From: an uncultured Clostridia bacterium
GTDB taxonomy: Bacteria; Bacillota; Clostridia; Saccharofermentanales; Saccharofermentanaceae
DNA: 48,584 nt
Reading direction: 5' to 3'
NCBI GenBank assembly: GCA_947165785.1
Contig: CAMVBS010000009.1
Span: forward strand, 1 to 48,584
Shown here in pieces: positions 19,929 to 34,977 of the stretch; position 1 is the first letter of the stretch; every line of letters starts with the position of its first letter. A program made the translations under genes and the position numbers. The notes beneath the pieces were generated by a model. It saw nothing but the letters and a program-made list of their open reading frames with translations. It ran no database searches and was not told the origin of the DNA.

Positions 19929-19937
19929 AACAGCGGT

Positions 19938-20054
19938 ATTGATCCAAGGCGGGGTGTGATTCCCCGACCGGCGGTAACAGCCCGCAACTCGCGTCAAAGA
20001 CGTGACTGATCAGGTGAGACTCCTGAGCCGACGGTATAGTCCGGATGAAAGGAG
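19938..20054 (+). promoter_or_regulatory. FMN riboswitch (RFN element)
   Basis: The conserved core is clear: AGGCGGGGTGTGATTCCCC, then GACCGGCGGTAACAGCCCGC, CTGATCAGGTGAGACTCCTG, and GCCGACGGTATAGTCCGGAT. FMN binding should lower expression of the riboflavin transporter downstream. The 3' strand runs straight into AAAGGAG (20048-20054), the ribosome site of ribU, and there is no terminator stem between them, so control is probably at translation initiation. Confidence 0.96.
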
Positions 20055-20064
20055 TTGTTTTATT

Positions 20065-28490: not shown

Positions 28491-28565
28491 GCCTCCATAG
28501 TTTAATGGATAGAACAGCAGTTTCCGGTACTGCTGGTACGGGTTCGATTCCTGTTGGAGGTGCCA
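28491..28565 (+). tRNA. tRNA-Arg(CCG)
   Basis: A full cloverleaf: acceptor GCCTCCA/TGGAGGT, D stem GTTT/GAAC, anticodon stem GCAGT/ACTGC with loop TTCCGGT (anticodon CCG, reading CGG), T arm ACGGG/CCTGT with TTCGATT, and an encoded CCA. A TGATAAAAT extended -10 lies at 28472-28480. Confidence 0.97.
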
Positions 28566-34065: not shown

Positions 34066-34140
34066 TGGGTGGAAGTACAGGAATCGAACCTGCCTTTGCT
34101 GTGCCACAAACAGCCGTCCTGCCACTAGACGAACAACCAC
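34066..34140 (-). tRNA. tRNA-His(GTG) with two U-U mismatches in the acceptor stem
   Basis: Anticodon stem GCTGT/ACAGC with loop TTGTGGC gives anticodon GUG. The extra G-1 opposite C73, the histidine identity pair, is present, and CCA is encoded. The T arm GCAGG/CCTGT and D arm GTCT/GGAC are sound. The acceptor pairs TGGTTGT with ACTTCCA, leaving U4-U69 and U5-U68 opposed. Such a double mismatch is unusual for a main-set tRNA. It is the last gene of the minus-strand tRNA operon. Confidence 0.9.
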
Positions 34141-34145
34141 ATGTA

Positions 34146-34221
34146 TGGCGATCCCGCGGGGAGTCGAACCCCGATCCTCGGAGAGACAATCCGATATAAT
34201 GTGCCGTTATACGACGGGACC
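34146..34221 (-). tRNA. tRNA-Asp(GTC) with a pyrimidine at position 37
   Basis: Acceptor GGTCCCG/CGGGATC, anticodon stem TCGGA/TCCGA, loop TTGTCTC (anticodon GUC), T arm CGGGG/CCCCG, G73 and encoded CCA. G73 and GUC are the aspartate identity elements. Position 37 is U, whereas tRNAs almost always carry a purine there. The D arm is irregular: GTAT pairs weakly across a long loop. Confidence 0.9.
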
Positions 34222-34225
34222 TTAT

Positions 34226-34301
34226 TGGTAGACATTCGGAGACTTGAACTCCGGACCTGCAGCTTATAAGGCTGCTGCTCTCACCACTGAGCTAAATGTC
34301 T
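34226..34301 (-). tRNA. tRNA-Ile(TAT), a rare AUA-reading tRNA
   Basis: A clean cloverleaf: acceptor AGACATT/AATGTCT, D stem GCTC/GAGC, anticodon stem GCAGC/GCTGC with loop CTTATAA (anticodon UAU), T arm CGGAG/CTCCG, A73 and encoded CCA. Most bacteria read AUA with a CAU tRNA modified to lysidine by TilS, so a UAU tRNA-Ile is uncommon. Confidence 0.93.
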
Positions 34302-34305
34302 TTGT

Positions 34306-34392
34306 TGGTGGGCCCGGCAGGAGTCGAACCTGCGGTGTTTCTTATGTCACAGATTTACAGTCAGTTGAGATCGCCACTACTCGTACGGACCC
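34306..34392 (-). tRNA. tRNA-Tyr(GTA), class II with weak stems
   Basis: 87 bases with acceptor GGGTCCG/CGGGCCC, A73, encoded CCA, T arm GCAGG/CCTGC, and a long variable region as expected for bacterial tRNA-Tyr. Loop CTGTAAA gives anticodon GUA. The anticodon stem ACTGA/TCTGT has a central U-U mismatch, and only three D-stem pairs form (GAG/CTC). First tRNA after the leader. Confidence 0.9.
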
Positions 34393-34407
34393 ATATTGAT
34401 TGAATCT

Positions 34408-34451
34408 AAAAAAGGGCGGGGGAAAGACGAAGTGCCTGTTCGCCTATCCCC
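34408..34451 (-). ncRNA. Downstream leader hairpin 2 with loop CAGGCAC and a following T-tract
   Basis: On the minus strand, GGGGA and AGGCGAA pair with TTCGTCT and TCCCC (12 bp with one U-U mismatch between the two stems) and present the loop CAGGCAC. CGCCC and TTTTTT follow, just before tRNA-Tyr. GGCG could instead pair with CGCC next to the T-tract, giving a terminator-like alternative. The loop with its flanks (ACAGGCACTTC) is an exact 11-base complement of the leader loop at 34811-34821. Confidence 0.6.
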
Positions 34452-34455
34452 TGTC

Positions 34456-34497
34456 GAAAACCTTTTAAGGAGTGCCTGTTTCCTTCAAAAGGTTTTC
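34456..34497 (-). ncRNA. Downstream leader hairpin 1 with loop AACAGGCAC
   Basis: On the minus strand GAAAACCTTTT pairs perfectly with AAAAGGTTTTC (11 bp). AAGGA/TCCTT extends it beyond one bulged G, closing the loop AACAGGCAC. The loop has the same CAGGCAC heptamer as hairpin 2 and is complementary to the leader loop over 9 bases (ACAGGCACT). Confidence 0.6.
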
Positions 34498-34500
34498 AGA

Positions 34501-34535
34501 TGGTGTCTCTTATCGGGATCGAACCGATCCGAGAC
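34501..34535 (-). ncRNA. tRNA-like minihelix (acceptor plus T arm only) ending in ACCA
   Basis: On the minus strand GTCTC-GG-ATCGG, loop TTCGATC, CCGAT-AA-GAGAC, then ACCA. This is exactly an acceptor stem (7 positions, two G-A oppositions) stacked on a 5-bp T arm with a canonical TTCGATC loop and CCA end; D and anticodon arms are absent. It directly follows the terminator T-tract. It may be a tRNA remnant or an RNase P/RNase Z processing signal. Confidence 0.65.
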
Positions 34536-34537
34536 AT

Positions 34538-34572
34538 AAAAAATCGCCCGGAACTTTTCTTTTCCGGACGAT
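34538..34572 (-). terminator. Attenuator: intrinsic terminator between leader peptide and tRNAs
   Basis: On the minus strand ATCGTCCGGAA pairs with TTCCGGGCGAT (11 bp, one G-U), loop of 8 bases, followed by TTTTT. It begins 31 bases after the leader-peptide stop codon and lies upstream of all four tRNA genes, so they are expressed only if it is bypassed. Confidence 0.85.
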
Positions 34573-34622
34573 CAACAGGAATGGCCGTGCTTACTTAGCA
34601 AGACTAATCTTTTGATCGCCCG
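34565..34622 (-). promoter_or_regulatory. Antiterminator pairing between the end of the leader ORF and the terminator 5' arm
   Basis: On the minus strand CGGGCGATCAA (34622-34612, the last base of codon 39 to the first base of codon 43 of the leader peptide) pairs with TTGATCGTCCG (34575-34565) over 11 bp with one G-U. The second strand includes most of the terminator's 5' arm, so the two structures exclude each other. A ribosome finishing the ORF would cover the first strand and favour termination; one stalled earlier would leave it free. Confidence 0.7.
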
Positions 34623-34738
34623 TATATATCATCATGATCATCATAGGATATCGATATGAAAGCGCACTCAAGATAGAGCGGATCATAATGATACGCTGCA
34701 TAAGAATATATATAGCCGTGTACATTAACGTTCTTCAT
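34604..34738 (-). CDS. 44-residue leader peptide rich in Tyr, His, Asp and Ile(AUA) codons
   Basis: AAAGGA lies 8 bases before the ATG at 34738. The 44-codon frame has 8 Tyr (residues 9, 11, 13, 16, 18, 22, 32, 39), 6 Asp (19, 33, 34, 36, 37, 44), 3 His (7, 17, 35) and 4 Ile (10, 28, 30, 38), and all four Ile codons are ATA. These 21 residues correspond to the four tRNAs (Tyr, Asp, His, Ile-UAU) encoded downstream. There is no signal peptide or membrane helix. Promoter upstream, terminator downstream and the overlapping antiterminator fit a sensing leader peptide. The alternative is that the frame is chance within a structured RNA. Confidence 0.75.
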   Translation of the reverse strand: MKNVNVHGYIYSYAAYHYDPLYLECAFISISYDDHDDIYGRSKD

Positions 34739-34754
34739 GGTCGTTATCCTTTCG

Positions 34755-34830
34755 TAAAAAAATAGGAAGCGCACTGATATCTGATCTCACATCCGTAAGT
34801 TCAGATGTCGGACAGGCACTTCCTTCATCT
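34755..34830 (-). promoter_or_regulatory. Structured 5' leader with loop AGTGCCTG and a terminator-like alternative
   Basis: On the minus strand, AGATG-AA-GGA / TCC-GA-CATCT folds into a hairpin (34830-34803) showing the loop AGTGCCTG. Alternatively AGGAAGTGC (34824-34816) pairs with GCGCTTCCT (34772-34764) right before seven T residues, a long-loop terminator shape. The two folds exclude each other. The loop is complementary to the loops of both downstream hairpins. Confidence 0.55.
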
Positions 34831-34839
34831 ATGAGTCGT

Positions 34840-34867
34840 ATTCTACCATCGATTTTTGATTTGTAAA
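34840..34867 (-). promoter_or_regulatory. Promoter of the leader-tRNA operon
   Basis: On the minus strand TTTACA (34867-34862) and TAGAAT (34845-34840) with a 16-base spacer. Transcription would start near 34833, at the first leader hairpin. Confidence 0.8.
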
Positions 34868-34977
34868 CCCCTTTTTTGAAAAAACGCCGAAAAATTATTC
34901 CGCGTGAAACGCCTGGTATAAGGGCGCTTTAGGGTAATTAGCATTTTATTATTATAAAGAGGGTCGTCTTTACGATG

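Follow-up and report, generated by a model that had tools for sequence, protein, structure and literature searches.

Why would a bacterium place a short open reading frame (ORF) and a transcription terminator in front of transfer RNA (tRNA) genes? The question is raised by a 48,584-nucleotide (nt) stretch of contig CAMVBS010000009.1 (the window), from an uncultured bacterium related to Saccharofermentans. On its minus strand, from 34867 to 34066, a promoter-like sequence is followed by a hairpin-forming leader, a ribosome-binding site, a 44-codon ORF, a terminator and genes for tRNA-Tyr(GTA), tRNA-Ile(TAT), tRNA-Asp(GTC) and tRNA-His(GTG), in that order (Table 1). The initial annotation of this DNA described that arrangement, which sequence and tRNA searches reproduce, and read it as leader-peptide attenuation, a reading that comparison of 36 loci now backs, with switching in the cell as its prediction. 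We put at roughly 0.85 the probability that the tRNA array is under leader-peptide attenuation and that only a shortage of its own tRNAs likely lets RNA polymerase through. The order of parts, the match between leader codons and tRNAs, the strand common to two covarying helices and the placement of the stop codon are established by sequence and comparison; attenuation itself we infer from this anatomy and covariation.

The proposed switch has two outcomes. A ribosome completing the ORF would cover region 2, leaving region 3 to pair with region 4, and the resulting terminator hairpin, T1, would end transcription. By contrast, if the ribosome stalls on a codon for Tyr, His or Asp, or on AUA, region 2 would stay free, and the 2:3 helix would form before region 4 exists, so that the tRNA genes would be transcribed. 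The new tRNAs would then relieve the stall in a negative feedback, with spare tRNAs being made on demand by the switch.

Leader codons and the tRNAs downstream

That the ORF is loaded with codons of the downstream tRNAs, as the initial annotation claimed, is borne out by counting. Among the 43 codons after the start codon, 21 are read by the four tRNAs (TAT 7, TAC 1, GAT 6, ATA 4, CAT 2, CAC 1), against 6.2 expected if the ORF used codons as 36 genes of the window do (14,166 codons; P = 8e-8). None of the 12,654 43-codon windows of those genes reaches 21, the maximum being 17. All four Ile codons are ATA, which accounts for 24.5% of Ile codons in the window genes (P = 0.0036). The anticodon set was dictated by the downstream genes and not selected for fit, and none of 50,000 random four-anticodon sets suits the window ORF as well as the real one; in the same test on nine short-array loci, fewer than 5% of sets were as good in eight, the figure for the ninth, L034, being 7.3%. 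Another 44-amino-acid ORF, in a different frame (34725-34591), was set aside and is not the leader ORF meant here.

For comparison, 115 genomes of the family were searched with the leader pattern GAAGGAAGTGCCTGTCCGACATC, allowing up to 3 mismatches. It occurs at 39 places in 36 of the 115 genomes; a reversed control pattern gave 1 match. Three places were dropped: one runs off its contig (G019), at another a contig end truncates the ORF (L035), and the third, a 3-mismatch match in genome G057, has no tRNA (L049). The last is probably a chance match, as the reversed control also gave one. The 36 analysable loci lie in 34 genomes and all combine a leader ORF, a terminator helix and a downstream array of 3 to 23 tRNA genes identified with ARAGORN (a Tyr tRNA missed by the program was added to the array of L066).

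Do the ORF codons follow the tRNAs present at each locus, or does the ORF report any slowing of ribosomes, whether by antibiotic, cold or starvation, as the leaders of antibiotic-resistance attenuators do? In that second case the codons would matter little. We scored tracking as the fraction of ORF codons read by the locus's own array minus the codon-usage expectation, leaving out the last six codons, which form the antiterminator strand. Across 22 cluster representatives the score is 0.175 with own arrays and 0.049 with swapped ones (standard deviation 0.016; P = 5e-5, the permutation floor). For arrays of up to 8 tRNAs, P is 5e-5 (n = 9) or 1.5e-4 (n = 8), depending on the clustering level, and the own-array ratio exceeds 1 in 35 of the 36 loci. 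When loci are added and clusters are drawn at similarities of 0.45 to 0.6, z ranges from 5.5 to 7.9 (P = 1e-5, again the floor). L116, L120 and L041 were excluded from this permutation and from the pairs below because their arrays run up to the edge of the available sequence; L147, also cut, stayed in and contributes one of the positive pairs. Among 12 sister pairs differing in both ORF and array, 8 shift towards their own array, 3 score zero and one scores -0.0, which the script counted as negative. Without correction for kinship, the presence of a tRNA in the array goes with a higher frequency of its amino acid in the ORF for 17 of 18 amino acids, Ala being the exception and Val qualifying by only 0.002. 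A general sensor of translation draws some support from the broad codon mix in the ORFs of long arrays, and from the lack of codon excess in five of the eight added loci (L116, L120, L146, L127 and L147; of these, L116, L120 and L147 have arrays that run to the sequence end, unlike L127 and L146), the excess being present in L107, L110 and L121. Tracking of the own array, both across loci and within sister pairs, nevertheless makes it unlikely.

The frame of the leader appears to be kept while its peptide drifts. Region 2 lies in the ORF frame in 36 of 36 loci, at a distance from the start codon that takes 11 values, from 18 to 53 codons; the frame count is partly so by construction because the ORFs were picked with a C-terminal pattern, whereas the existence of such an ORF in 36 of 36 loci is not. 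With that same filter on the ORFs, no locus among the 36 shows a broken frame beside a conserved RNA, the pattern that the initial annotation would have taken as a refutation. The peptides range from 23 to 61 amino acids and differ widely outside the C-terminus, where G-R-[LS] recurs in most of these ORFs, themselves picked with a related pattern. An omega-like value of 0.57 was obtained from 10 non-overlapping pairs, the changes at first, second and third codon positions numbering 46, 53 and 66. A recurrent C-terminus and a value below 1 might suggest a small functional or arrest peptide whose codon content is incidental. That is very improbable: the conserved C-terminus coincides with the antiterminator RNA strand, and the rest of the peptide follows the array tRNAs. 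Least credible is that the codon enrichment arose as a side effect of RNA structure: the window ORF does fold on itself and its TAT/ATA and CAT/ATG-type triplets pair within it, but where the array differs, so do the codons in excess, and this explanation was already disfavoured.

Two helices that share a strand

An antiterminator/terminator pair had also been proposed for this leader, and the two helices do share one strand, region 3, and both covary. In 31 of 36 loci the distance from where region 2 begins to the end of the stop codon is 18 nt. In the 2:3 helix 93.5% of alignment cells are paired, and both-sided changes, 18 in all, fall in three of the seven pairs; only 1 of 500 shuffles was as high for each of paired cells, both-sided cells and score, and 36 of 500 for the number of both-sided pairs. 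Own 2:3 partners also beat swapped ones in Watson-Crick pairs (P = 6e-4). The 3:4 helix is 93.9% paired, with a covariation score matched by 0 of 500 shuffles and a count of both-sided cells matched by 21. Versions of either helix slid in register pair far worse. One locus, L050, is absent from the leader alignment (35 of 36 loci) and had its region 3 placed by hand for the pairing and folding tests; in the covariation alignment it is misaligned and therefore counts against pairing there.

Co-transcriptional folding calculations support the proposed sequence of events. When early stalls are modelled before region 4 is made, the 2:3 helix has a mean probability above 0.5 in 35 of 36 loci. Once the ribosome sits at the stop codon, its leading edge assumed to lie 15 nt ahead, that probability is 0.00 in 36 of 36.

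Several observations weigh against leader-peptide attenuation as drawn here. The added loci without codon excess are joined by L061, with an own-array ratio of 0.98, and selection on the peptide is weak. In the helices, pair types at 2:3 are not above shuffles (495 of 500 as high), nor are two of the 3:4 counts (both-sided pairs, 112 of 500; types, 111 of 500), and some loci, for example L034 and L036, carry 2:3 mismatches. In L055 the early-stall mean probability of 2:3 is only 0.42. At equilibrium with region 4 present, the early-stall average puts the terminator ahead in 31 of 36 loci, and the antiterminator in only five (L044, L045, L046, the last by 0.01, L058 and L059); the window itself stands at 0.67 for the terminator and 0.32 for the antiterminator. 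These models thus give no support to a switch driven by thermodynamics alone, and we assume a kinetic one, as in trp, which is what the equilibrium preference for the terminator would require. Finally, a long hairpin upstream of the ORF, T0, is without a place in a simple attenuation scheme.

Further structures around the leader

In 36 of 36 loci the leader stretch before the ORF, cut at its first U-run for folding, has as its minimum free energy structure the long hairpin T0, at -25 to -42 kcal/mol and ending at that U-run. The 5' strand of T0 can alternatively form a mini-hairpin, in folds of -10.5 to -21.6 kcal/mol. This mini-hairpin is the only structure in the RNAalifold consensus; its seven pairs are all kept in 35 of 35 aligned leaders, with no both-sided change, and its loop is AGUGCCUG in 33 of the 35 and GGUGCCUG in L041 and L051. 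All 36 loci have the complementary motif AGGCAC outside tRNAs and ahead of the second tRNA, and in 29 of them it forms the loop of a hairpin between regions 2 and 3. Further copies lie after the first tRNA or, in loci of the window type, before tRNA-Tyr, and by a crude stem measure these sit in clear hairpins in only part of the loci. Genome-wide, in 23 genomes, AACAGGCACTY gave 95 matches and its reversed control 74, a result near control, with 12 of the 95 in arrays. The natural reading of loops carrying AGUGCCUG and CAGGCACU is a kissing contact, which lies beyond the reach of covariation because both loop sides hardly vary. T0 and these loops probably constitute a second RNA layer.

Table 1. 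Features of the tRNA locus (coordinates in the window)
Feature	Position	Strand	Basis
Putative promoter: -35 TTTACA (34867-34862), 16-nt spacer with TG, -10 TAGAAT (34845-34840)	34840..34867	minus	10/12 consensus
5' mini-hairpin, GAUG-AA-GGA, loop AGUGCCUG, UCC-GA-CAUC; loop complementary to CAGGCACU	34804..34829	minus	kept in aligned leaders
T0, long hairpin (-28.9 kcal/mol) running into a U-run upstream of the ORF; excludes the mini-hairpin	34756..34830	minus	minimum free energy fold
Ribosome-binding site GAAAGG(A)	34747..34752	minus	sequence; Shine-Dalgarno (SD)-like match in 33/36 loci
Leader ORF MKNVNVHGYIYSYAAYHYDPLYLECAFISISYDDHDDIYGRSKD, 44 codons plus TAG	34604..34738	minus	GAAAGGA upstream; codon match to downstream tRNAs
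Antiterminator: region 2 CGGGCGATC (34622-34614, last ORF codons) and region 3 TGATCGTCCG	34565..34622	minus	folding, covariation
T1, intrinsic terminator GATCGTCCGGAA..TTCCGGGCGATT plus U-run, -17.9 kcal/mol; 5' arm is region 3	34538..34573	minus	fold, covariation
tRNA-like minihelix: acceptor-like stem, T-arm-like loop TTCGATC, 3' CCA	34501..34536	minus	fold
Hairpin B, CAGGCAC in loop	34457..34496	minus	fold
Hairpin C, loop CAGGCAC; U-run 34413-34408 starts five bases past the stem	34419..34451	minus	fold
tRNA-Tyr(GTA), divergent second copy, 44.6 bits	34306..34392	minus	tRNA search
tRNA-Ile(TAT), would read AUA directly	34226..34301	minus	tRNA search
tRNA-Asp(GTC), pyrimidine at position 37	34146..34221	minus	tRNA search
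tRNA-His(GTG), divergent second copy, 43.2 bits	34066..34139	minus	tRNA search

The 443 nt from the leader to tRNA-Tyr fold more stably than dinucleotide shuffles (z = -5.8). Transcripts terminated at T1 are predicted to end at 34543-34538 on the minus strand. Sites of the promoter's grade (10/12 consensus) number 2 in the region and 2.3 in shuffles; the same -35/-10 pair is present in the nearest relatives, L045 and L066, and in a simple promoter scan only 14 of 36 loci reached 9/12. The T0-like hairpin, the two CAGGCAC-loop hairpins upstream of tRNA-Tyr and the CCA minihelix had no place in the initial annotation. The minihelix, which may be a tRNA remnant or a processing site, lies about where the first tRNA sits in most relatives. 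Elsewhere in the window, on the plus strand, are a flavin mononucleotide (FMN) riboswitch (19936-20060, 92 bits) and a lone tRNA-Arg(CCG) gene (28491-28565).

A probable second tRNA set, its spread and its nearest parallels

The arrays look like second, divergent sets of tRNAs. In a complete relative, G008, ARAGORN finds 23 tRNAs in the array and another 41 in 27 regions fetched from elsewhere in the genome; 20 of the 23 share an anticodon with outside tRNAs at 52-71% identity. The window's own genome has another Tyr(GTA) gene on contig C45 and another His(GTG) gene on contig C1; a second Asp gene was not found among the tRNAs fetched from this 96.65%-complete draft. A tRNA with a CAT anticodon, probably the usual lysidine-type reader of AUA, adjoins the other Tyr gene. 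The label 'spare tRNAs' given in the initial annotation thus suits a genome with other Tyr and His genes and a family in which a complete relative has a full set outside the array. U33 is near-universal in tRNAs. It is missing from 60 of 391 array tRNAs of the 36 loci and from 0 of 72 others in G000 and G008 (Fisher 3e-5, the array genes not being independent; a doubtful tRNA, L094, was excluded from the ordinary set), mostly in tRNAs for Lys(TTT) (17), Asn (15) and Pro (10). In relatives such as L033-L069, C33 or another base replaces U33 in tRNAs for Lys, Asn, Pro, Ser and others; the window's four tRNAs all keep U33. From these sequence features we infer that the array tRNAs are a divergent reserve set.

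Beyond the 115 genomes, a scan of GTDB species genomes gave 47 stretches titled Saccharofermentans, Ruminococcaceae, Clostridiales and similar, including five labelled Lachnospiraceae and two contigs of one Paludibacteraceae bin. The latter metagenome-assembled genome (MAG) holds two leader loci, L107 and L121, and its label reflects either a binning error or transfer. Records that carry the leader under no MAG label include Ruminococcaceae bacterium AB4001, KHP2, YAD3003 and YRB3002. Matches in Parabacteroides and Fulvimarina have no downstream tRNA and look like chance. With an RNA model of the leader, 188 genomes of the order yield 35 that match, confined to two genera, and a class sample of 391 genomes yields 5, every one from the home genus; that sample missed the Lachnospiraceae stretches. 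An origin in phages or mobile elements was considered, and among 2.9 million viral contigs there was no exact match to the leader pattern. In L110, from a Clostridiales MAG, the same 5' hairpin stands before an unrelated 70-amino-acid leader ORF and 25 downstream tRNAs (ARAGORN). Total tRNA numbers do not separate the genomes, being 37-61 in five with the leader and 38-45 in four without. Clustering of flanking ORFs shows that the window-type locus has neighbours in common with G039 and G090; the largest flanking family was rejected as ORFs antisense to tRNAs and to a PF04308 gene. In 16 of the 44 loci examined (L033, L036, L042, L044, L047, L050, L052, L053, L058, L059, L065, L067-L069, L116 and L127), a gene with a YkuK-type RNase H-like motif either follows the last tRNA or lies within the array, the window not being among them; four such genes were confirmed as PF04308.

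How does the locus compare with known systems? Leader-peptide attenuation is the textbook control of amino-acid operons such as trp, his and phe. Like those attenuators, the leader has a short ORF enriched in codons that call for the operon's own product, a 2:3 antiterminator exclusive of a 3:4 terminator, an SD-like site, and a stop codon beside region 2 at which a ribosome would mask region 2. Unlike them, it has tRNA genes as its output, its ORF would sense several tRNAs at once, and it carries an extra upstream terminator-like hairpin and complementary loops. It is not a member of the Rfam His_leader family (RF00514; 18.6 bits against a cut-off of 49, E = 1.1). T-box riboswitches, common in Firmicutes, likewise attenuate in answer to tRNA charging, whereas here sensing would be by the ribosome; T-box models gave no match at gathering score in the window, nor up to E = 10 in 34390-34880. 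No Rfam family other than tRNA reached its gathering score in the region or in five relatives, the best sub-threshold match being of a plastid family on hairpin B (25.1 against 51.5 bits).

A tRNA array unit is a large, dense cluster of about 20 genes or more. With four genes the window array is below that size; relatives have up to 23. The array units described for Firmicutes and Mycobacterium (Morgado and Vicente 2018, PMC5966550, citing Tran et al.) are, like the arrays here, dense and redundant, duplicating tRNAs that the genome already has; neither a leader ORF nor an attenuator is mentioned in the part of that account consulted. For phage tRNA sets whose anticodon loops are altered, escape from tRNA-cleaving defences has been proposed (van den Berg et al. 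2023, PMC10264068). The arrays resemble those phage sets in their redundancy and altered anticodon loops, and differ from them in lying in bacterial genomes behind a codon-matching leader; any resistance of theirs to nucleases is putative. The initial annotation's claim that attenuated tRNA output is new stands as far as the literature searched extends: among the matches listed in open-licence literature none describes leader-ORF attenuation of tRNA genes, a weak absence with subscription journals mostly outside its scope. The available text of PMC2965389 has 0 occurrences of 'tRNA gene', 'tRNA operon' or 'upstream of tRNA', and LOOT, a published motif, was not found among the best 15 of 324 literature matches. 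The locus is real and conserved, and its tRNA output is new as far as the open-licence literature shows.

More tentatively, and with clearly less than even confidence, the arrays could be a bacterial emergency tRNA system: a silent, divergent set, with the ORF as its codon inventory, that would be released if agents such as tRNA-cleaving toxins or phage defences destroyed the ordinary tRNAs, and shut down once the spares restored decoding. This proposal includes a kissing switch at T0, in which array transcripts would act through AGUGCCUG and CAGGCACU, in cis or in trans, on the first terminator.

A tRNA output coupled to a leader that lists the codons of its own array would amount to direct feedback on decoding capacity. 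More broadly, leader-peptide attenuation offers a role for redundant, divergent tRNA arrays in bacteria, that of an inducible reserve, and the leader ORF would reveal, by sequence alone, the tRNA shortages against which each species guards.

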